Below are positions 12,467 to 45,796 of a stretch of 46,245 nucleotides of DNA, piece after piece. Source of the DNA: an uncultured euryarchaeote. GTDB lineage: Archaea; Thermoplasmatota; Poseidoniia; Poseidoniales; Poseidoniaceae. The position numbers were made by a program, and so were the translations under genes. The notes beneath the pieces were generated by a model. That model made no database searches. It had not been told where the DNA came from and saw only the letters and a list, made by a program, of their open reading frames with translations. The DNA lies in NCBI GenBank assembly GCA_937911345.1, contig CALDPP010000035.1, positions 1-46,245 of the forward strand, written 5' to 3'. Numbering within the stretch: the first letter of the stretch is position 1; each line of letters begins with the position of its first letter.

Positions 12467-13600
12467 ATGTTCAGTGGTAGAATATCTCAGGCTGTTGCTA
12501 GTCAAATTGAGAAAAAAATATCAGAGAATAATGACCTGAATTCTTTATCTAATTCAGAACTAGCAAACTTAGCGATAGAATTTGTTGGCGATGCCCCTCC
12601 TTCCCATGTACCTAGAGAAACTGTCATCGAAATATTATCACAACAACCCGAGATTAATTCGTGGAGAGAGAACCTAAAACAGAAAGCTGTAGAGGCAGCC
12701 AAAAATAAAGTTAGAAACGTCGCAAATAATGTTGATCCTAGAATGGCAAACATGATTAAGCAACAATTCGGCCAGTGGCTGCAAAATTCTGGCCTTTCTA
12801 CTGTGGAAATTACTACAAAAATAGACACTAACTCCGATGGTATGATTAGTAGAACTGAACTAAATAATTTCATTCAAAATCTATCTGGAACTCAACCCCC
12901 AGAATGGGTATCTGAAACACTAATTTCTATTCTAGACAAAGACCAAAATGGAGTAATTGAAGTTCAAGAGTTATGGGATTACCTCGGAGCAATTGGATTT
13001 GAAGTTCCTGTAATTCAGGAACCGGTAACCGAAGAAATGGTTGTGGAAGAACCAGTAATCGAGGAATCAACAGAAGAGGTGCATGAAAAAGATGTGTACG
13101 AAGATGCTGAATGGTCAGATGAATCAGAAATCGATATTGATCAAGAAATAAAAGAGATTCCGGATATTCCACATGTTGAAGAAACCGATACCATAACTCA
13201 AGCAGAACAAAAACCTGCTATTGTGGTCGAAAATGACAATAATGTTGAGGAATTGCCAAGCATCAATACCTCTATAGAAATTGGTATAGAGAAACTACAC
13301 TCGACAAGATTGCATAGAGAAGCGATCAGTGTAATTGAATCTACTGAGCCTGGTAATTGTACAATCATAGTTGAAAGGGTCGAAAGGACATTGATGGTAA
13401 TGGACAGTTATAGAGGAGGCATGACCGTAGTAGGATTACTTGATAACGGACCTTACACCGTAGCGGTATTATTTGAGCCAAATTACAATGATCAAATCGA
13501 GACATTAGTGGGCAAGAAGATTTCATTTTCTGGAGCCCTTCATGATTGGTCAAGTGGACTTAGACAAGCTAAACTGAAAGGTTCAAATTTAACCTTGTAG
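12467..13600 (+). CDS. Cytoplasmic EF-hand pair protein with acidic linker and uncharacterised C-terminal domain
   Basis: EF loops DTNSDGMISRTE (nt 12824-12859) and DKDQNGVIEVQE (nt 12935-12970), both with canonical ligand spacing; no signal peptide. Confidence 0.8.
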   Translation: MFSGRISQAVASQIEKKISENNDLNSLSNSELANLAIEFVGDAPPSHVPRETVIEILSQQPEINSWRENLKQKAVEAAKNKVRNVANNVDPRMANMIKQQFGQWLQNSGLSTVEITTKIDTNSDGMISRTELNNFIQNLSGTQPPEWVSETLISILDKDQNGVIEVQELWDYLGAIGFEVPVIQEPVTEEMVVEEPVIEESTEEVHEKDVYEDAEWSDESEIDIDQEIKEIPDIPHVEETDTITQAEQKPAIVVENDNNVEELPSINTSIEIGIEKLHSTRLHREAISVIESTEPGNCTIIVERVERTLMVMDSYRGGMTVVGLLDNGPYTVAVLFEPNYNDQIETLVGKKISFSGALHDWSSGLRQAKLKGSNLTL

Positions 13601-33432: not shown

Positions 33433-34371
33433 ACTCAATGACTCGATTAATTCACTAAGTAATTGATTTAAAGGAGTTGCCAAACCATATTTCTCTGCTT
33501 TGTTAACTATCATCCGATTGAGAAACTTTATTTCAGTAGTTTTACCTAATCTAACGTCTTGTAGCATGCTACATTTGTTATCCTTGGTGTTCTGTAAAAC
33601 TAATTTCAAATTGTCTACAAGTTGACTATCATCGTCTAATTCCACACCTTCCATTCTTGCGACTTTAGCTGCTTCTAGCATGACCTCTGTACATGTTTCA
33701 AACATATCACCTTCGAGTAATTCTCCATTTTTCTGCCCTGTTATAGCTGCAATTGGATTAATTGCAATATTAATCAATACCTTTGACCATACCAAATTAC
33801 TGCCATTATCGCTCCAAGTTGGTTTTAGATTTGCAGCCTGAAATGAACTAATTAGTTTGGTTAATTGTTCTAATTTTGGGCTATTTCTGTCTTTACCTAG
33901 ATTGATTGCTCCTAGGCCGGCCCACTCAATGCTACCTGGGTTTTTTCGCCACACACCATGAGTTGTTGTTGCTGGTATCACTCGATGGGAACCGAACTCT
34001 TGTGATCCTAACTCAATATGTCCAAGACCATTACTCAAAATAATTATTCTAGTATCGTTGTTTGTGAATCGTTTAGCCAATTTGAGTAATTCTTCAACAT
34101 CTCCGGCCTTTGAAGTTATCAAAATGTAGTCTGCTAATCCATCAAAGACTGAATTAATTCCAACATCTTGTATTGAAAGATGATACTGATCTGGAGATAT
34201 ATGGAAACACTCAACACCATCGACAGAAATGCCGTTCACTGCTAGTGCTGCTGCATGTTCACCTCTGCCATGAATGAGTACCTCCGAATCATCTAATTGA
34301 GCCAACTTTGCACCGATTAAAGTACCAATATTGCCAGCGCCTAGAATAACAAATTTCATATTATCACTCAT
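33424..34371 (-). CDS. Ketopantoate reductase family (ApbA/PanE) protein
   Basis: MKFVILGAGNIGTLIGAKLAQ; DYILITSKAGDVEELL; VWSKVLINIAINPIAAITGQKNGELLE; substrate-domain tail. Confidence 0.88.
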   Translation of the reverse strand: MSDNMKFVILGAGNIGTLIGAKLAQLDDSEVLIHGRGEHAAALAVNGISVDGVECFHISPDQYHLSIQDVGINSVFDGLADYILITSKAGDVEELLKLAKRFTNNDTRIIILSNGLGHIELGSQEFGSHRVIPATTTHGVWRKNPGSIEWAGLGAINLGKDRNSPKLEQLTKLISSFQAANLKPTWSDNGSNLVWSKVLINIAINPIAAITGQKNGELLEGDMFETCTEVMLEAAKVARMEGVELDDDSQLVDNLKLVLQNTKDNKCSMLQDVRLGKTTEIKFLNRMIVNKAEKYGLATPLNQLLSELIESLSLY

Positions 34372-36941
34372 GAGTAACTACCTAGATAGATGTAAACTTC
34401 TCCATCCTCATAATCTATGTACATTGTTGATAACAAGTTATCTGGTGGCGCAAAGTTAAATCTATTCTCTCCTGGCATGATTTCGGTTACTGATTCGATT
34501 ACCGACCACTCCTCTGAGTCTTCTCCTGAAGTTGTTTGGACAATGTTAACTCGAGTGGTAGAATTTACGGGATTATGGATTACAAATTCTGACATGTTAC
34601 TTCCAGATAATTCTCCGTTTGCAGCAGATGCCCAAAGCGAAGTCCACATTCGGTAAAACATATTATTCCTTTCAAAAATCAGTTCAGGGCCATAATCTAT
34701 AGAGATTATACTGTCTGGAGCTGGATACAATTGTTGTGAACATATCGAAATTTCATCCTCATCATTTAGCACAATTAACAATGAATCATTTTCTTGAATC
34801 GCAGGAATCATTGAACTAGGGCGATAGTTCGTATTCCATATCCATTGTTGTGACTGATTGCTTGGTTTTGTGGGTGTGCTCGCCATTGGGTTGAGTTTGC
34901 AAGTTTGTTCAGAAACAGATAGGATATCTCCGGATTCTAATTCTGAACCCCAACCTCTAACATCAGTAGAATCCACTAACGTGCCGTTTTCTGGAGAGAT
35001 AAACCTCATCGGAAGTACAGGATTTTGTGGCGAGAAAGTATGATCTCCAACTTTGATCACAGTAAGGACATAAGACCTTAGTAAAATTACTGGGTCTTGA
35101 CCCTTAATACAGATCTCACCAATATCTTCGGTAATTTCTGCCTCCAAACCTTGATGACCTTCAATCCAATACATCCTAGTTTCAAAGGTAAAATCAGATG
35201 CTGAATTAGGGAATGAGACATTATACGGCTGCTCATTATCTGAAAATACCTCTAAACACCTCATCACATCATCTGAGTCATAATTCATATACCAACTAGA
35301 ATTAACATAATGAGGTATTTCAGGTGTAAGTTTTATTGTTGAAATTATTGGCTGATCATCGACATATGTAACCAAATATACTTCTTCTGAGGTAGGACTA
35401 TATTGATTATAATTCCAACTTACATTCAAAGAAACCGTCGAAACCATACCAGGAAGAATATTATCGCCACAGCCTGTTAATGTAGATGAATTGCGTTCAT
35501 CATCGCTACATAACCAATCAAAATTCCAGTTTTGAGAGACTACACCGTCAGAAGTTGCCAAATCAATTTGCCAATACTGTGTGATTGATGCTATGTTTAC
35601 TATGTCAATTTCTAATGTGCCATTCCATGAACCATTGGTTTCTAATATCGAGATAGAATCATTAAATTCGTATGAGATTTCTTGGTTCCAATCATCATCC
35701 ATTGAGTAAGGAGTCTGCCCCGGAAGTCCCAATAGGAAAATTACGAATAGCAAAATCCCCATCCGTTTAACACTGTCATTGTCGACTTCCTTTGGCTCAT
35801 CTAAAATCAGTGGCACCCTTCTATCAGCACCTAGTAGTAACAATAACGGGAAAATTATTCCCAGTATTGGAAGCCAAATATTGAAACTTGCAAAAGAATC
35901 AAACATCCAAGCAAAGGCAAGAATAATTGCAAAAAGAAATAGTTGATTGGTTGAATTTCTAGTTTCTGCCATACTAGTTCTAGCGATTAGCAAACGGCCA
36001 CCTGGGAATGTTGGTATTGGAATTAAAGAAATCCAGCCAAAGAAACACAGCATTGAACCTGCCTTCGATAGAGGATGTGACCAAACAAGTTGGGTCGTAA
36101 CATTATCTGAGAATAATGGACTCAACAAATTAACAATTAACGGCATGTCTGGTACATATTGCATTGATGAAACTGCGACTATCTCAGGAGTTAAGTGCAA
36201 ACCAACCAACCACAGTATAACTCCTAAACCAACCATTGTAGTTGGCACTATCAGAGCGCTCCAGCCCAACATTTCACGGTCTTTCCACGGCCTTGCATCC
36301 ATTCTTGGCAAGGATGGAATTATCAAAATCCCAAACGGCCAAATTAGTAATGACTTCGGCATCAAACCAATACTAAATAGCGAGATTGAAGGATCGGGTA
36401 TTGGCGTTAGATGACCAACTCGCAATCCATGCCTTTCTCCATGAGCTTTCTGGAGGAATGATGCCAACAAAATAGCAGAAAAAATAGGTAGAGTGTAGCC
36501 AATAAATGCGTCGAGAAATAATGATTCGACAAACCATCCATCATCTGGTCTTGCATCCTCAATCCAAAGCATTCCAGCAATAGTTGCGGTTATCAGCGAA
36601 AATGACCAAAATCCAATAGTTGTTTTTGATGATGGGAATTGTCTTTCAGGACTTGGAATAACTTGGACAAACCAAGGGTCTCCAACTTGTAACTTAGCCA
36701 GCCAACCTAGATTCTCCAAGTGAGAGTTGAGTTTCTCTAATTGCGAATGAACATCAGTTGATTCTTTTTCAGTAATCTTCCAAACAGGCCATTTGGTTCC
36801 GCCCAATTCGCCGGTTACAATGAAATATCTTGCAATTATGTTACCAAGCAGTTCCTTTTGACCCCAAACTTGCTTGTGGGCCTTCAATTGAGATTTATCA
36901 TCGCCATTATTTGTAGTCGATTCGTTGTCATCGCTACTCAC
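34368..36941 (-). CDS. Site-2-protease (EGY/archaeal S2P)-like multi-pass membrane protein, predicted catalytically inactive, with large C-terminal extracytoplasmic domain
   Basis: N-terminal domain VWKITEKE...LNSHLENLGWLAKLQ...VQVIPSPE; TM regions; ERHGLRVGHLTPIP; SHPLSKAGSMLCFFGWISLIPIPTFPGGRLLIA aligns to the LLPIGQLDGGR region; HExxH position reads ASFLQ. Confidence 0.55.
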   Translation of the reverse strand: MSSDDNESTTNNGDDKSQLKAHKQVWGQKELLGNIIARYFIVTGELGGTKWPVWKITEKESTDVHSQLEKLNSHLENLGWLAKLQVGDPWFVQVIPSPERQFPSSKTTIGFWSFSLITATIAGMLWIEDARPDDGWFVESLFLDAFIGYTLPIFSAILLASFLQKAHGERHGLRVGHLTPIPDPSISLFSIGLMPKSLLIWPFGILIIPSLPRMDARPWKDREMLGWSALIVPTTMVGLGVILWLVGLHLTPEIVAVSSMQYVPDMPLIVNLLSPLFSDNVTTQLVWSHPLSKAGSMLCFFGWISLIPIPTFPGGRLLIARTSMAETRNSTNQLFLFAIILAFAWMFDSFASFNIWLPILGIIFPLLLLLGADRRVPLILDEPKEVDNDSVKRMGILLFVIFLLGLPGQTPYSMDDDWNQEISYEFNDSISILETNGSWNGTLEIDIVNIASITQYWQIDLATSDGVVSQNWNFDWLCSDDERNSSTLTGCGDNILPGMVSTVSLNVSWNYNQYSPTSEEVYLVTYVDDQPIISTIKLTPEIPHYVNSSWYMNYDSDDVMRCLEVFSDNEQPYNVSFPNSASDFTFETRMYWIEGHQGLEAEITEDIGEICIKGQDPVILLRSYVLTVIKVGDHTFSPQNPVLPMRFISPENGTLVDSTDVRGWGSELESGDILSVSEQTCKLNPMASTPTKPSNQSQQWIWNTNYRPSSMIPAIQENDSLLIVLNDEDEISICSQQLYPAPDSIISIDYGPELIFERNNMFYRMWTSLWASAANGELSGSNMSEFVIHNPVNSTTRVNIVQTTSGEDSEEWSVIESVTEIMPGENRFNFAPPDNLLSTMYIDYEDGEVYIYLGSYS

Positions 36942-37006
36942 TGGACCACCTCACAGTTTGTGGGTGTAGTTCTTTCCTACTTTAATCATCGTTGAGAAAA
37001 TAAAAC

Positions 37007-37624
37007 TTATTTGTTCTTGAAACGCTTCAGTCTAAATGTTTCTTCACGTTCCATTTCTTCTAATCTAAGTTGAATAAACACTTTAGCTTCTTCTAACTCT
37101 GGAATTACTTTGAATTCAAGAGCGTTCACCCTACGTTTGGTCGCTTCTATTTCTTCAAGCAAACGCTTTAGTGTTGCTTCCATCTCTGATGCTGTGACTA
37201 TTTTCTCAATTAACTCACTAAATGATTCACTTGCTTCATCAATATATGGTGATGAACCAATATATCCTACACCGCGTTCTTGGAAAGTTGATTTTAGATT
37301 GGTTCCACTGACACTAGGAACAACTACACCCATGATGTTTCGTCTCTCAACTTCTACCTCGGGGTGAGCACTGTTAGCGATTGCTGCAGCTCTTACCTTC
37401 AAACCTCCATCAATTGCATTTGCCAAATCAATCCTTTGCTTGGCTAGTCGATAAGCGTCGGTAAGTTCTCGCTTTGCTTCAATCATTTTAGATAACAATT
37501 GTCTGAATTCATGAAACAATCCATCCCTTTTCATCTTCAAAAGTTTGTAACCATTCTTGGTTTGTTTTATTCTTGCTTTCAGCTTAATCAATTCACTGCG
37601 GGTTGGTTTGATGTCCAATGCCAT
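37007..37624 (-). CDS. atpD: A-type ATP synthase subunit D
   Basis: MALDIKPTRSELIKLKARIKQTKNGYKLLKMKRDGLFHEF; EIEATKRRVNALEFKVIPELEEAKVFIQLRLEEMEREETFRLKRFK. Confidence 0.95.
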   Translation of the reverse strand: MALDIKPTRSELIKLKARIKQTKNGYKLLKMKRDGLFHEFRQLLSKMIEAKRELTDAYRLAKQRIDLANAIDGGLKVRAAAIANSAHPEVEVERRNIMGVVVPSVSGTNLKSTFQERGVGYIGSSPYIDEASESFSELIEKIVTASEMEATLKRLLEEIEATKRRVNALEFKVIPELEEAKVFIQLRLEEMEREETFRLKRFKNK

Positions 37625-37640
37625 GAATATCTCTCCTGAT

Positions 37641-39020
37641 TCACTCTTTATTTTCTGGGTGATACTTTTCAATCCACTTTTGATCCAATCTTACTAGATA
37701 CTTGGTGTCAATTGATGCCATCAAGGTCCAGCACAGGTCTAGTGTTTCATCGATTGAACGGTCTTCATCTCTTGTCTGACGCAGGAACTTGTCTTCGAAT
37801 ACTCCGGAGAAGTCTAAGAGTTGCTTGTCACGCTCATTTAATGCATCTTCACCAACAATAGCCACAAGACCTCTCAATTCTCTACCTTGAGCATATGCAG
37901 CATACATTTGGTCTGATACAGATTTGTGGTCTTCTCTGGTGGTCTTTTCTCCGATACATGAACCCATAAGCCGTGATAGTGAAGGCAATACGTTAATCGG
38001 CGGATAGATACCCTGTTGATGTAGTTCTCTCGAAATAACAATTTGTCCTTCAGTAATATATCCTGACAAATCTGGGATTGGGTGAGTAATGTCGTCACCA
38101 GGCATGGTCAAAATCGGGAATTGAGTAATCGAACCCTTCTTGCCCTTAACAATTCCAGCACGTTCATACAACATAGCCAAATCAGTATACATGTAACCAG
38201 GGTAACCTCTTCTTCCGGGTACTTCTTCTCTAGCTGCTCCAATTTGCCTTAGAGCATCACAGTAGTTTGTCATATCAGTGTAGATAACTAGAACGTGGTA
38301 ATCTTTCTCGAAAGCAAGGTATTCAGCAGCGGTAAGTGCTAGCCTCGGAGTGATGATTCTCTCAACCGCTGGGTCATCCGCTAAATTAACGAACAATACC
38401 GCGTTTTCCAAAGCACCGGTTCTCTCAAGATCACTTCTAAAGAAATTATATTCTTCTGCGGTGATTCCCATTGCACAGAATACCACGATAAATTCTTCAT
38501 CGGAATCTTTCAATTTTGCTTGTCTGGCAATCTGCAGAGCAATATCATTGTGCGGCAAACCAGATGCAGAGAAAATTGGCAACTTCTGACCTCGTACTAG
38601 AGTCGTACAACAATCAATAGCTGAAATTCCTGTTTGAATGAAATCGTGTGGGCTTTGTCGGCTGTATGGGTTAATAGCAGCACCAATGATGTCGGCATTT
38701 TCTTCAGCTACAATACTCGGGCCGCCGTCTCTTGGTCGTCCAGCACCGTCAAGAATTCTACCAACAAGTTCAGTGCTGACTGGTAGTTTGAAAACATCCC
38801 CCATGAAGGTAACTCCAGATTCTCGATTGATTTTTGCAGTCCCTTCGAAAACCTGAACGATAACTAGTTCATCTGAGGTATCAAGAACTTGTCCATTCTT
38901 GATTGAACCATCTGCAAGCCTAATGGTTACTATTTCACCAAAGGCTACTGGTTCGGTTTTATTCAAAAAGACCAGAGGTCCTTTAACATCGGTAATTGTT
39001 CTGTATTCTTTTCCACTCAT
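37641..39020 (-). CDS. atpB: A-type ATP synthase subunit B
   Basis: [92 protein letters not shown]. Confidence 0.97.
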
Positions 39021-39031
39021 GATAATCCCTC

Positions 39032-40771
39032 CTAGTTACCCTCCACGGTACTTGCGACTTCATCGGTCATTTTCTTGACCATTTCATCAATTTCATCGAT
39101 GTAACCTTTCTCGAATCGACCTCTCATCAAGTCTGTTCTTGACTGTACATTGACAACGTCATTTAATTGGGCGCCTGAAGCCATAGCAGACTTGGCAGAA
39201 TCTTGGAATGCTAAGATTGCTTTTGCCATCTTGTACTGTAGATTGATGTCACAGTATGCATCAACTTCATGGAAACCATTCTGTTGTAGGAAGAACTCTC
39301 TAATCATTCTAGCAACCTCAAGGGTTAGTTGTTGGTCTACTGGTAATGCATCTGAACCTACTAATTGGACAATCTCCTGAAGTTCAGCTTCTATTTGGAG
39401 CAAACCACTAACTTGTGTTCTAATCTCTGGGAAGTCTTGTGCTATATTGTCTCTGAACCACTGATCCAAACTTTGTGGGTACAGTGAATAAGAATTCAAC
39501 CAATTAATAGCAGGGAAGTGTCTTTGTCTTGCTAAACCTGCATCAAGACCCCAGAATACCTTAACAATTCTAAGAGTTCCTTGGGAAACTGGCTCTGATA
39601 TATCTCCACCAGGAGGCGATACTGCCCCAATTACGGTAACTGAACCGTCGTCACCGTTTAGAGTTTCAACACGACCAGCACGTTCGTAGAATTCTGCAAT
39701 TCTTGATGAAAGGTATGCCGGGTAACCTTCTTCTCCTGGCATTTCTTCAAGTCTAGAGGATATCTCACGCATTGCTTCAGCCCACCTTGAGGTGGAATCT
39801 GCCATAAGTGCAACATCGTAGCCCATATCTCTGAAGTACTCAGCTATGGTGATTCCAGTATATACAGACGCTTCACGTGCAGCAACCGGCATATTCGATG
39901 TGTTAGCAATCATCACAGTTCTGTTCATCAACGGTTTTCCTGTGTTTGGATCAATCAAATGCGGGAACTCGTCAAGTACCTCAGTCATCTCATTACCTCG
40001 CTCGCCACATCCAATGTAGACTACGAGTTGAGCGTCTGAGTATTTTGCCAGTGATTGTTGAGTAACTGTCTTTCCAGAACCGAATGGCCCCGGAATACCT
40101 GCAGCTCCACCCTTTGCAAGTGGGAATAAGAAATCGAGAATTCTCATACCAGTCACTAGCGGAGTGTCTGGAGCATACTTTTGTCTAAATGGTCTTGGAG
40201 ACCTAACAGGCCACTTCTGCATCATCTGTAGTTCTGTACCGTCGTCAAGTGTACAAACGGTTTCTGTAACATTGAAATCACCAGATTTTATACTCTTTAC
40301 TTTGCCACTTTTACCCGGAGGAACCATGATTTTGTGAACAATAGTTTCAGTTTCTTGGACATGGCCAATGACTTGGCCGCTGGCTAATTCATCGCCCTTG
40401 GCGACCTTTGCCTCAAATGTCCACTTCTTTTCGAGGTCAAAAGCATCAGCATCAACACCTCTTGTGATGAAGACACCCATTACTTCCTCAAGGGTAGCAA
40501 GCGGTCTTTGAATTCCATCATAAATTTGAGTCAATAGACCTGGACCCAACGATACAGAAAGCGTTTCTTCTGTATTCAGAACTGGTTCACCCGGTCTAAT
40601 ACCTGACGTATCTTCGTATACCTGTATAACCGCTTTATCTCCGTGAAGTTCGATAACTTCACCCATCAGACCTTCATTACCAACTCTGACAACGTCATAC
40701 ATAGCTGCATTCATACCAGTAGCGGTTACAACCGGACCGGATATTCGATATATTACTCCTTCATTACTCAT
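39032..40771 (-). CDS. atpA: A-type ATP synthase catalytic subunit A (no intein)
   Basis: [45 protein letters not shown]; 579 aa continuous. Confidence 0.97.
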
Positions 40772-40793: not shown

Positions 40794-41093
40794 TCATTTC
40801 CATAAGTCGACTCCTATTGCCTTACGAATTGTGTCACGTAAGGTTGTATCCTCTTCGGTCCCAATTCCAAGGACCGTTGGGGTTACTGATGCAGAAAGCT
40901 GATCTCTCAGTCTTTCTGGCAAGGTTGACATTATCGAGGAATCGATAACGATAATTCCAACCTCTTTTGAATTTAGTAGTGATTTTAATTGCGATGACAT
41001 TTCATCATCCGTCTCTGGATTGAAGATGTTTGAGATTCCAGCCAATTGGAATCCAAGCGTGAATTCTTGAGAACCTACTACCGCCAACTCCAT
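40794..41093 (-). CDS. atpF: A-type ATP synthase subunit F
   Basis: [19 protein letters not shown]...[40 protein letters not shown]. Confidence 0.93.
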
Positions 41094-41102
41094 GTTATCA
41101 CC

Positions 41103-42137
41103 TTACAAAATGTGCGCCTCTAGCACTTCAGGAGGCAATCCGGCAAATCTTCCCCTAACGATTATTCTCAAGTCTGCAACTTCTTGTACCTTCATTGCAA
41201 CGTAATATACGATTGGTAGCGCAGAAATAGGATGGAGATAACTCATTTTCTTCATGAATTTATATTCCCTTTCTTTGAACCATGTAACTACTGAATCAAG
41301 GCTTCTGGATTTAGTAACTTCTTCTAGTAAAGTCTCAAAATGTGGCATGTCGAACTTAGATGATGACCTAAGGATATCCATCAGAGCAGATTTACCACCT
41401 GCTGCGATAGAAGAAAAAGCCCTTGGCGGTAGAATCCTACCACCTGGAATCAACAACTCGGAAATCTCATCAGAGGAGATTCCAATCGAATCTGATTCTA
41501 ATACATTTAACAGATTCCTATGGTCTATTTCCATGCGAACATAATCCCTCAAGTATCGAGTTGCTGGATCATGTGCAGTAAGACGGCCTAAGGCTGATTT
41601 GAAGTAATGCCTGTCCAAGGCATCCTCATAATCTGAAAGTTTCGCATCGTCTGGTAGTGCTTTCAAATCATTACCAAACGGCTTTCTGCGCATTTGAAGC
41701 GCGGCGGACCGAAGGTCATCCGCAGTTTCAATAATCTTTAGCCATGGAGTATTAATTTCATTCAAATCAGGTAAAATTGAATTGGATACCTTCTCTAACG
41801 AAACCTCATTTAGCACTGAACGCAGTACAACTTTAGCATTTTGATATTCAAAACGAGAAGTATATATCTCGACAATGCCCTTGATTTTACCTCCACACAT
41901 TTCGAGAATTTCAGATAGTTCTGCTTCTAGGTTGTGTGTTAAGGCTGCTTCAACTAAATCTGCTCCAGACAACTTGCCTGCATAGAGATTAACTTCGTCA
42001 GCATAACCCATGTTGCTTACTGAGGCAGTTAATTGATCTGTGGATTGGTTAATCAATTGGCGCATTCTCGCCAAATCTGCAAGTTTCTTTCTTCGAGATT
42101 TGGCTCTCGAAACAACATATGCAGTATTACCAACCAT
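41103..42137 (-). CDS. atpC: A-type ATP synthase subunit C
   Basis: NTAYVVSRAKSRRKKLADLARMRQLI..., LRDYVRMEIDHRNLLNVL, PISALPIVYYVAMKVQEVADLRIIVRGRFAGLPPEVLEAHI. Confidence 0.94.
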   Translation of the reverse strand: MVGNTAYVVSRAKSRRKKLADLARMRQLINQSTDQLTASVSNMGYADEVNLYAGKLSGADLVEAALTHNLEAELSEILEMCGGKIKGIVEIYTSRFEYQNAKVVLRSVLNEVSLEKVSNSILPDLNEINTPWLKIIETADDLRSAALQMRRKPFGNDLKALPDDAKLSDYEDALDRHYFKSALGRLTAHDPATRYLRDYVRMEIDHRNLLNVLESDSIGISSDEISELLIPGGRILPPRAFSSIAAGGKSALMDILRSSSKFDMPHFETLLEEVTKSRSLDSVVTWFKEREYKFMKKMSYLHPISALPIVYYVAMKVQEVADLRIIVRGRFAGLPPEVLEAHIL

Positions 42138-42146
42138 CTTATCGCC

Positions 42147-42710
42147 TCATTCAAACAATATTTTGTTAACTTCTGATAGGGATTTGCCCCAAGCGTTTTC
42201 TAGCAAAGTGTCAAATCGCATGTCATAAGATACTGAACTGTCTGCTGCTTCTAAAATGAAACCACCAAGTCCATCAACAGATTCGCCTAGCTTGCGTTTC
42301 CCTTTCAGGTCGCCCAGAGCTTTCCTGTCTACTTCCACAGGCCTGATTATGAAATCGGCAGAGGCCAGTTTATTAGCCTTAGAAACCAGAGATTTCAACA
42401 TGCTGGCACGTCCTTTGAAACCAGGGTCTGCTAGTTGTTCCTTGACTGCAGCATGAGTACTATCCATTGCTTCTCTTTTGGCAATCAATATTGCCTTTTG
42501 ATTGGCTTGTCTTGCACTCGCTACAACTTCTCTTGAGATTTGCGAAGCTTCTCGCTCTGCACGGGAACTGGCATCACCAGTTATTGCAGAGGCCTTGCTC
42601 TTTGCCTCATCGATTATCTGCTTTGCTTCAGCTTTGGCTTCATCGATTATTGCTTTAGCATCAGCATCTGCTGAGGCTGCAATATCATTCGCCAACGTTT
42701 CTAGCGTCAT
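42147..42710 (-). CDS. atpE: A-type ATP synthase peripheral stalk subunit E
   Basis: Alanine/lysine-rich coiled coil; RPVEVDRKALGDLKGKRKLGESVDGLGGFILEAADSSVSYDMRFDTLLE. Likely ATG at 42710 (MTLETLAND). Confidence 0.88.
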   Translation of the reverse strand: MTLETLANDIAASADADAKAIIDEAKAEAKQIIDEAKSKASAITGDASSRAEREASQISREVVASARQANQKAILIAKREAMDSTHAAVKEQLADPGFKGRASMLKSLVSKANKLASADFIIRPVEVDRKALGDLKGKRKLGESVDGLGGFILEAADSSVSYDMRFDTLLENAWGKSLSEVNKILFE

Positions 42711-42762
42711 CTTTATTCCTCCATCATCTCCAACAGCCATCTTGGCCGTCAAAGGTCAATGT

Positions 42763-43077
42763 TCACTGTAGGAACAATGGCAATGCGCCTAGAATAACGA
42801 TAGATTCAGGTAGAGCAGTGAAAATTAGTGCGTAACCGAATTTGCTTCCGTCTTCTGCAAGCATTCCAACTGCTGCACTACCGATTGCAGCTTGGGAGTA
42901 GCCAGCACCAATAGCTGCTAATCCTAGCGCAATACCAACACCGAGTGCACCGATGTTGTCGTCGTCTCCTGAATCATCTGCTGCTGCATCTTGTGCGGCA
43001 ACACCTTGTGCTACCAAGGTCAATGCCAGCAAGACGATCAATGTTCTTAGGCTCATTTTTAGGGTATTCTTGTTCAT
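42763..43077 (-). CDS. atpK: A-type ATP synthase subunit K (c-ring proteolipid) with N-terminal signal-like segment
   Basis: LGVGIALGLAAIGAGYSQAAIGSAAVGMLAEDGSKFGYALIFTALPESIVILGAL: hairpin with TM2 carboxylate in LPES; preceded by SLRTLIVLLALTLVAQGVAAQDAAADDSGDDD. Confidence 0.93.
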   Translation of the reverse strand: MNKNTLKMSLRTLIVLLALTLVAQGVAAQDAAADDSGDDDNIGALGVGIALGLAAIGAGYSQAAIGSAAVGMLAEDGSKFGYALIFTALPESIVILGALPLFLQ

Positions 43078-43107: not shown

Positions 43108-45459
43108 CTATGATTTCCCCTCCACATGAAGGGTTCTGCCTCCTAATGGGGCAAACGCTTTTCCACTACCATCGTAGAATTTGCCCATCCATTCTACAAA
43201 GTGTAGACGGACGGCGTGAATTGATGGAGAGAGTATTCCAAGTGCTATCGCAAACAGTTGAATTAACACGAAAAGTACAATCCCTACTACAAGTGTTAGA
43301 TAATCTCCAGAGTCTAGTGCTGGACCTATTTTGTCCCAGCCCATACTGATTGAAATTTCTGCAATCTTTACCCCAGCAACTCCAACACCCATTATTCTAA
43401 GGTATGATAGAGTATTTGCGAGCAAACCAAATATTTCGATTGGCCCCATTACTAATCCTCCTACCCAGCCGAACTTTTCGTAAACTGCAAGACCAACAAC
43501 CAACGATGCCAGTCCAACTGCAATTAAAACGGTCCAAACTTGGAACTCGAATAATTCATTGAATCCCATAACCATATTTCTTGCTTGCATGGTTCCGCCA
43601 GTCATGATAAGTAACCAAGACCCTTTTTCGAAGTAAGCTGCTGCTGCACCATGGGCTTTGAACACGGTGAAAAGACCGATAAATAGCCCCACAAAGATGT
43701 GCAAGATTCCCACATATACTGAAAGTACTACGTATTCTTGTAGACCGCCGCCGGGCGTTGCTCGATGGAATGGTACGTGAAGGCCACCCATTGCAAGTAA
43801 GTCGGCCATGGTTCCAGGGACGTGGATATTTGCATATGTCCAATCATAGATAAAGTCAAATGGCGAGGAATTGCCTAATTGCCCCGTATCATCCCATACA
43901 AAACCAAATCCTTCAGCGAAAATTAATCCCCAGATAATACACCATATGCCCATCCAGCGAAGAATTGTTAATCCATTCTTGGCAATTGGGTCTGCGGCAA
44001 ATGGTTTGGTTCCAAAATATGCTGCTAATGCAACAAGAACGAGACCGTATCCCCAATCACCCAATATCATTCCATAGAATATCGGGAAAGTAAACGTCAT
44101 TAGTAGCGTTGGATCAAATGTTCCATATTTTGGCCTACCTACTAGGTCTACGAGAAGTTCAAATGGTTCGGAGAAATCTCCGTTATCAAACTTGATTGGA
44201 GGCTGTGCATCGTCATGGTGTTCTCCGACATGATAACTACCGTTTCTAATGGACCCAATAGCCAAGTCTAATTCTGGTAAATTGATTCTACCGTCTCTAT
44301 TCAAATCGATTGCTGCTAGGAACCTTGCCATATTCAGAGGCGGCATGTCTGGTATGTTAGCCTTCTTCATTGCGGCCTCTATCTCGCCGAACTCAAGTTC
44401 GCCTGAGTCATCTAAATCCATGCTCTTAAAGAATTCAAACACTGATTGATTCTTCAAGTCAAGGTAATCAGCTAGCATCTCTAATTCTTTTGGCACTTCC
44501 TTGGAGTGACTAGAATCGTCATGATCATCATCATGATGGTGGTGGTCATCAACATATTGTTCTATAGAAACGTGAGATGCGACTTTTCCTAGAGCAGATT
44601 CGACCTTTTCTTTATCTTCACTGGGCACCCAACCATCTAATACGAAGGCTTGGTTGCTAACTGCTAATAGAGTTGGAGCAGTGTAGATTGATTCTTCTTT
44701 TTCGAGATATTCAAGCAAAATTACCAAATCCCTGCCGTTTGAATTTGTCCATTTTTCGATCGATTTGTTAGCATTTTCAATATCTGACTCTAGTGAGTTT
44801 ATTGACGCCTCTGCTTGGGAAATCATGCTCTCAACGGAACCTTCACCGGATGGGATTTGTATTGCTTTGGCGCCAAGTGAACTTAGACCCATTTGGACTT
44901 CTGCACTATCAGACGGGCGACATGCTACCGCAATCACTCCTTTAGCAACCTGTAGCTCAATTTCAGAGATTATTTCGGAAAATTCAGAGCGTGCTTTGGA
45001 TGCCTTTGGAGATTCTGCCACATATAGTTCAAGCCCATCATATCCTGCCATTAACTCAAGTGGTATGCCCAGAGGAGCAATTCTTTGTAGGGCTTTTACC
45101 CGCTCTTGTAGTCTAGCGATTTCTGACTCAGCATCACGGGAAATGTCTATGCTAGCGAGAGCTTCATCGACTTTTGATTTCATTGAGGCTACAAGTTTTT
45201 TTACTTCAGCAACTGACTTGGGCCCATCTGTGTTTACCGCATTGATTTCAGACTGCAATGCTCTGGCCTTAGTAAGCAGTTGGCTGGTTTCGGCTGATTG
45301 TTCAGTCGAAATGGACTGCCCAACACCAATACCATCCTCAAAATTCCCGTATTCCTCAATGTGAACACATCCCAATTCGGCACAAATTCTTAGGATTTCT
45401 TCTAGTTTTCCAACTGGAGATGCTACTGTCAACCTAGACATCTCGGCAGTTTCAAACAT
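43108..45459 (-). CDS. atpI: A-type ATP synthase subunit I (a subunit) with inserted EF-hand pair
   Basis: PIKFDNGDFSEPFELLVDLVGRPKYGTFDPTLLMTFTFPIFYGMILGDWGYGLVL and LSYLRIMGVGVAGVKIAEI are subunit I signatures; residues ~304-420 form the insertion. Confidence 0.95.
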   Translation of the reverse strand: MFETAEMSRLTVASPVGKLEEILRICAELGCVHIEEYGNFEDGIGVGQSISTEQSAETSQLLTKARALQSEINAVNTDGPKSVAEVKKLVASMKSKVDEALASIDISRDAESEIARLQERVKALQRIAPLGIPLELMAGYDGLELYVAESPKASKARSEFSEIISEIELQVAKGVIAVACRPSDSAEVQMGLSSLGAKAIQIPSGEGSVESMISQAEASINSLESDIENANKSIEKWTNSNGRDLVILLEYLEKEESIYTAPTLLAVSNQAFVLDGWVPSEDKEKVESALGKVASHVSIEQYVDDHHHHDDDHDDSSHSKEVPKELEMLADYLDLKNQSVFEFFKSMDLDDSGELEFGEIEAAMKKANIPDMPPLNMARFLAAIDLNRDGRINLPELDLAIGSIRNGSYHVGEHHDDAQPPIKFDNGDFSEPFELLVDLVGRPKYGTFDPTLLMTFTFPIFYGMILGDWGYGLVLVALAAYFGTKPFAADPIAKNGLTILRWMGIWCIIWGLIFAEGFGFVWDDTGQLGNSSPFDFIYDWTYANIHVPGTMADLLAMGGLHVPFHRATPGGGLQEYVVLSVYVGILHIFVGLFIGLFTVFKAHGAAAAYFEKGSWLLIMTGGTMQARNMVMGFNELFEFQVWTVLIAVGLASLVVGLAVYEKFGWVGGLVMGPIEIFGLLANTLSYLRIMGVGVAGVKIAEISISMGWDKIGPALDSGDYLTLVVGIVLFVLIQLFAIALGILSPSIHAVRLHFVEWMGKFYDGSGKAFAPLGGRTLHVEGKS
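44200..44550 (-). other. EF-hand pair plus His/Asp-rich insertion within AtpI
   Basis: DDHHHHDDDHDDSSHSKE...; loops DLDDSGELEFGE (nt 44383-44418) and DLNRDGRINLPE (nt 44272-44307); HVGEHHDD at the distal edge. Confidence 0.85.
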
Positions 45460-45469
45460 TTCTTAACAC

Positions 45470-45796
45470 CTACAATGAAGACATTGTTTTGAGAATATGA
45501 TCAACTGCTTTAGATTGATTTTTCTCCGCAGTCGTAGAAATTGCATCCACTGACTTTGAGCCATCTTTTAGTACCTTATCCGCTGATTTAGAGGCTTCTT
45601 CACGAGCCCCGTCCAATGTTGCTTGAGTACTAGATACTGAATCATCAGAGGCTTTAGATACTAATTCTGTTGACTTTTTTCTAGCATCTGATACTATTTT
45701 GGATGCTTCATCCTTGGCAGCAGACAACTTGCGGGCTGCCTCTCTTTCGGTTTGCTTAATTTTCCTCAGGACATCAGCCATTGTCAAATTCATCAC
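45470..45796 (-). CDS. atpH: A-type ATP synthase peripheral stalk subunit H
   Basis: MADVLRKIKQTEREAARKLSAAKDEASKIVSDARKKSTELV coiled coil, directly upstream of atpI. The start could be the internal MADV. Confidence 0.8.
   Translation of the reverse strand: MMNLTMADVLRKIKQTEREAARKLSAAKDEASKIVSDARKKSTELVSKASDDSVSSTQATLDGAREEASKSADKVLKDGSKSVDAISTTAEKNQSKAVDHILKTMSSL

Follow-up and report, generated by a model that had tools for sequence, protein, structure and literature searches.

The A-ATPase operon and the EF-hand module of subunit I

The window, that is, the whole stretch of 46,245 nucleotides that was analyzed, was found to contain a complete-looking A-ATPase operon with the gene order H-I-K-E-C-(F)-A-B-D, and its subunit I gene, which belongs to this operon, carries an EF-hand pair in the middle of the protein. 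The genes of the operon and the features within subunit I were as follows.

37007..37672, minus strand: A-ATPase subunit D (Pfam ATP-synt_D, 5.2e-55)
37641..39020, minus strand: A-ATPase subunit B (Pfam ATP-synt_ab, 1.7e-79)
39032..40771, minus strand: A-ATPase subunit A (Pfam ATP-synt_ab, 1.6e-75)
40794..41093, minus strand: 99-aa ORF, probably subunit F, from its size and its position between C and A only
41103..42137, minus strand: A-ATPase subunit C, d-type (Pfam vATP-synt_AC39, 9.8e-50)
42147..42752, minus strand: A-ATPase subunit E, peripheral stalk (Pfam vATP-synt_E, 8.2e-11)
42763..43077, minus strand: A-ATPase subunit K, rotor ring (Pfam ATP-synt_C, 1.2e-12)
43108..45459, minus strand: A-ATPase subunit I (stator a subunit), 783 aa, bearing the EF-hand insertion (Pfam V_ATPase_I)
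44203..44229, minus strand: C-side half of an ancestral His/Asp linker (VGEHHDDAQ), from the alignment with other Poseidoniales subunit I
44239..44505, minus strand: inserted EF-hand module, residues 319-407 (core 321-406, about 87 aa), missing in the same-genus outgroup and in all other genera
44272..44307, minus strand: EF loop 2, DLNRDGRINLPE, residues 385-396; D at position 1, D at 5, G at 6, N at 9 and E at 12 invariant in 44/44 full-length carriers
44383..44418, minus strand: EF loop 1, DLDDSGELEFGE, residues 348-359; D at position 1, D at 3, S at 5, G at 6 and E at 12 invariant in 44/44 full-length carriers
44506..44553, minus strand: the other half of this ancestral linker, on the N side (VDDHHHHDDDHDDSSH), from the same alignment, in which other Poseidoniales subunit I proteins have the linker without the EF module
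45470..45796, minus strand: A-ATPase subunit H/G, peripheral stalk (Pfam V-ATPase_G_2, 7e-6, marginally under the cut-off; operon position)

The subunit I gene was one unbroken frame, as the sequence-only reading had held, and the domains on both sides of the insertion were those of a normal subunit I. The Pfam profile V_ATPase_I matched the protein at 4.2e-29 (101.5 bits, with a cut-off of 30.7), and the best Foldseek match of the subunit I model was the Thermus protein 6qum_N (E 3.9e-20). Its solved relatives in the PDB were subunit I of Thermus and Enterococcus and the a subunits of eukaryotic V-ATPases. The N-terminal crystal structure 3rrk was aligned to residues 6-307 and the membrane domain of Thermus subunit I to residues 411-772, and the C-terminal membrane region was strongly conserved. 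Because of these two alignments, the module is placed exactly where the cytoplasmic N-terminal arm of subunit I joins its membrane domain; according to the topology established for this family, the joint lies in the cytoplasm. Elsewhere in the operon, the usual domain of subunit K was found to be preceded by an N-terminal extension that is hydrophobic and signal-like and by a stretch rich in Asp (AADDSGDDDN). An 857-aa ORF adjoining the operon (34368-36941, minus strand) gave no match in Pfam.

EF-hand models of Pfam matched subunit I at residues 340-397 with scores near the cut-offs. In the scan of the protein, the scores were 2.9e-6 and 28.0 bits for EF-hand_7 (cut-off 30), 8e-6 and 25.5 bits for EF-hand_1 (cut-off 25.4) and 2.6e-5 for EF-hand_5; in the genome-wide scan, EF-hand_7 reached 32.2 bits on the same stretch, above the cut-off. 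The module was modeled by AlphaFold as two helix-loop-helix units, each loop containing a short strand, preceded by an extra helix (helices at residues 324-335, 340-345, 357-366, 377-384 and 394-405), at a moderate pLDDT of about 70-80, and its placement within subunit I is unreliable in this model (pTM 0.40, pLDDT of the flanking linkers below 50). Two known types of EF-hand protein were rejected as an identity for the module. Calmodulin has four EF-hands in two lobes, whereas there is a single EF pair here. Dockerins have calcium loops of the F-hand type, which lack the bidentate Glu at position 12; Glu 12 is invariant in both loops of the module, and the Pfam scan gave no dockerin match.

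Distribution, single gain and conservation of the module

When 319 genomes of the order were searched, alignments spanning the insertion were obtained only in the window's own genus, MGIIa-L1 (Poseidoniaceae). In the other genera, subunit I was matched in two pieces (about residues 1-318 and 413-783) and its frames were shorter, typically 676-740 aa. Among the 63 genomes of the genus, the module was present in 49, the closed MG-II chromosome CM001443.1 being one of them, and absent in seven (G041, G058, G060, G061, G068, G070 and G083); the other seven were undecidable, with subunit I either missing or in fragments. Among the matches listed from a phylum-wide sample of 390 genomes, none outside MGIIa-L1 spanned the insertion. 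A contig placed in a Flavobacteriales bin (CALKHD010000188.1, L117) was found to bear an ATPase subunit I of the MGIIa-L1 type and is probably mis-binned.

A tree was built from 75 subunit I proteins with the insert left out, and in it the 44 full-length carriers formed one clade (SH-aLRT 93) beside five module-free sequences of the same genus. The single clade implies that the module was gained once, and in this tree no loss was detected within it. The window genome is a metagenome-assembled genome of 219 contigs, for which an artefact of assembly or binning has to be considered; however, the module can hardly be such an artefact, since it occurs in 49 genomes from many studies, the closed chromosome included, and its flanks align in one frame. 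An assembly chimera, which according to the sequence-only reading would be indicated by absence of the insertion from all related genomes, was rejected on the same distribution.

Both EF loops were located where the earlier reading had placed them. In all 44 full-length carriers, the module had two 12-residue loops with ligands at positions 1, 3, 5 and 12 that were invariant or conservative and with Gly at position 6, and is therefore a paired EF-hand by sequence pattern. Loop 1 followed the pattern D-x-D-x-S-G...E, with D or E at position 9, and loop 2 the pattern D-x-[DN]-x-D-G...N..E, its position 3 being D or N. In 34 close pairs of sequences, which are not independent and have fairly high synonymous differences, the module had a dN/dS of 0.046; in the N-terminal and membrane domains it was 0.062 and 0.025, respectively, and in the linkers 0.076. 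These values indicate that the module is under purifying selection, kept as a predicted EF pair of the Ca2+-binding type. Because the ligands hold in 44/44 carriers, selection is purifying and the insertion is single and inherited, the EF pair is more than a chance resemblance. The linker is flexible and fast-evolving and tolerates changes in length, so that an insertion might have been tolerated there as a neutral passenger, with fold stability alone conserving it. This explanation is very improbable, given that neither the module nor any ligand has been lost in a full-length carrier of the clade and that the module dN/dS is as low as about 0.05.

The sequence-only reading had taken the His/Asp-rich runs on either side as part of a metal-binding insertion. 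The inserted EF-hand pair was confirmed, but the runs were rejected as part of the insertion, since they are found in module-free subunit I as well. Module-free relatives carry one continuous linker, for example VDDHHHHDDDHDDHHEP, between the same subunit I flanks; nearly all of the Poseidoniales examined had the His/Asp linker in subunit I, whether EF-hands were present or not, and a similar His-rich linker was seen in both families of the order. From these alignments, the EF module split an older Poseidoniales linker, and the two runs are its halves. Because the runs belong to this older linker, the insertion proper is taken to be the EF module of about 87 aa only. As an observation in its own right, a His/Asp- or Gly/His-rich linker (44203-44553 in the window; L220-L233) is general in Poseidoniales subunit I and might serve in metal or proton buffering.

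A sister module on a CcoN-fold membrane protein

When the whole of subunit I was compared with its own genome, the match besides itself was to a membrane protein, whose tail was 45% identical. Across the genus, strong matches to the module fell into two classes, that of subunit I and that of the membrane protein, and the next matches were at about 1e-9 and about 30% identity. Modules from subunit I and from the membrane protein of the same genome were 46-70% identical, and 48% identical in the window genome. The host of the sister module was as follows.

L165:8206-10182, and in the own genome L164:1794-4064, plus strand: 12-helix CcoN-fold protein with an EF-hand tail

A relation between the insert and a second EF-hand protein of the window had been hinted at in the sequence-only reading. 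That protein exists (12467-13600, plus strand; 377 aa, comprising a pair of EF-hands, a middle part rich in Glu and Val and a C-terminal domain that was not recognized), but it is not a close relative of the insert, the sister domain being that of the CcoN-fold protein. It was rejected as the source, as only the weak matches of about 30% identity were left beyond the two strong classes. The window genome encodes at least six EF-hand proteins in 1.88 Mb. Another frame, of 781 aa, was seen to combine several EF-hand pairs with zinc ribbons and membrane segments (L166, G000 contig C70, about 36000-37300; L003).

In MGIIa-L1, the membrane part of the CcoN-fold protein gave no match in Pfam, and its sequence profile gave none against PDB sequences. 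The fold was recognized from the AlphaFold model (pTM 0.71), which was matched by Foldseek to CcoN of a cbb3-type oxidase (9g6b_A, E 5.5e-9, target TM-score 0.75), and from two divergent members, with matches to Pfam COX1 (2.9e-15 in one of them, above the cut-off) and, weakly, to TIGR00780 ccoN (3.8e-8). The protein thus has the 12-helix COX1/CcoN fold of a heme-copper oxidase subunit I. The six heme- and copper-ligand histidines are not kept: the membrane part conserves only two His columns, 84 and 268, and divergent members are likewise without the full set. Because these six histidines are not kept, the protein probably no longer binds hemes; a separate, ordinary COX1 is encoded in the same genome. 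Throughout the family the protein resembles an uncharacterized pseudo-oxidase. Its gene is flanked by a radical-SAM protein gene on one side and the gene of a YchF-like GTPase on the other. Many copies end additionally in a SAP-like domain, which suggests that the EF tail is cytoplasmic.

The CcoN-fold protein was found in all 11 genera of Poseidoniaceae (156 of 171 genomes). In every representative examined, from eight genera, it ended in the same EF pair with an LPPW...DLDGDGKINLPELDI-like signature, and these EF-tailed proteins also occur in genera whose subunit I is module-free. The simplest reading of this distribution is that an older tail module of the CcoN-fold protein was most likely copied once into subunit I. 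On this reading, the His/Asp-rich linker of subunit I, which is cytoplasmic, would have received an in-frame copy of the EF-hand pair in the ancestor of most MGIIa-L1, with the C-terminal tail of the CcoN-fold protein of the same lineage as the most likely donor. The direction of transfer rests on phyletic distribution, the module tree of 87 columns being too short to give it; in that tree a single clade of subunit I modules was neither supported nor rejected (p-AU 0.24).

The occurrence of the same module in two membrane proteins of one genus, with the extra N-terminal helix and a PPW...NLPELDI signature conserved in both, could also mean that the EF pair serves in docking. It would then bind a protein or peptide with which both the CcoN-fold protein and the ATP synthase interact, or the two modules would bind each other, bringing the two complexes together, and switching by Ca2+ would be optional. 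We regard this as quite unlikely to be the main role of the module; the EF-tailed CcoN-fold protein is present in genera with a module-free ATP synthase, so that such a partnership is not obligatory there.

Proposed function and comparison with known systems

The explanation that we favor, with confidence a little better than even, is that the EF pair spliced into the linker has been kept as a Ca2+-binding-type module through which Ca2+ tunes or localizes the ATP synthase. The insert would have been retained since its gain as a working module. Its most likely role would be regulation or docking in response to Ca2+, exerted from the stator neck, where the arm meets the membrane domain: cytoplasmic Ca2+ would bind to the module there and shift its conformation. 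The shift would in turn alter a contact with the adjoining subunits of the ATPase, or with a partner able to recognize the EF module of the CcoN-fold protein as well, and the altered contact would tune or localize ATP synthase activity. ATP synthesis in MGIIa-L1 may accordingly be responsive to calcium. To our knowledge, cytosolic Ca2+ signaling is not established for these uncultured archaea.

The same ligands could form a structural site instead, the EF pair permanently holding Ca2+ (or Mg2+) and stiffening or lengthening the stator neck with no regulatory role. The ligands are invariant rather than varying, and the insertion point is a flexible, low-complexity linker, both of which agree with such a site. 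There is also a precedent in mEAK-7, whose EF-hand-like domain is likewise associated with a rotary ATPase, the mammalian V-ATPase, and is structural and not Ca2+-sensing, neither binding Ca2+ nor responding to it (PMC9263379). However, mEAK-7 is a separate TLDc protein and its EF-like region lacks the key acidic ligands (PMC9263379), whereas all ligands are kept in subunit I; moreover, the paralogue of the module is the terminal tail of another protein, where stiffening of a neck has no meaning. A purely structural site is for these reasons considered possible but rather doubtful, and the Ca2+-responsive element is preferred.

A further step from the preferred reading would be a Ca2+-keyed layer of control over energy conversion in archaea, in which one EF module, common to the ATP-synthase stator and to a heme-less oxidase-fold protein, allows cytosolic Ca2+ to couple or gate both; this is put forward tentatively and is itself unlikely. 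Marine Group II archaea abound in the surface ocean, and if Ca2+ does act on their ATP synthase, this would be a kind of calcium signaling not expected in prokaryotes. Sister species of the same genus with a module-free subunit I provide a natural control, and a fragment of about 120 residues suffices for direct testing of the finding.

Rotary ATPases are regulated through many added factors, and no A/V-type a/I subunit that incorporates a domain of the calcium-sensor type is known to us. In line with the sequence-only reading, none containing EF-hands was described in the literature searched, and searches on EF-hands together with Marine Group II, with A-type or archaeal ATP synthase or with heme-copper oxidase found nothing relevant. 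Subunit I and the EF-hand pair are each known; it is their combination that was not found in the literature searched or among solved relatives. Calcium proteins as a theme in Poseidoniales are already known, families of calcium-binding domains specific to the two subgroups of the order having been reported, with the subunit I case not among them (PMC9258230).

Compared with known archaeal and bacterial A/V-ATPases (6qum_N; Enterococcus hirae 8wci_P), the subunit I of MGIIa-L1 is alike outside residues ~303-420, but none of the solved relatives listed has a segment matching the EF pair of about 87 aa in its linker. The EF-hand mitochondrial ATP-Mg/Pi carriers (SCaMC) also place Ca2+ sensing in a bioenergetic membrane protein, although they are unrelated transporters and the likeness is one of analogy only (PMC12319048). 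The closest sister of the module is that of the CcoN-fold protein of Poseidoniaceae, up to 70% identical within one genome; in that protein it forms the C-terminal tail, in many cases with the SAP-like domain after it, whereas in subunit I it is internal. The best solved sequence relative was a calcium-dependent protein kinase (9vhu, E 2.9e-8). The module resembles canonical EF pairs, such as a calmodulin lobe or the EF domain of CDPK, in loop residues 1-3-5-6-8-12 and in its paired helix-loop-helix units, and differs from them in that it is a single pair, lies inside the stator of a rotary ATPase and has both a PP(W/L) linker and an additional helix at its N-terminal end.
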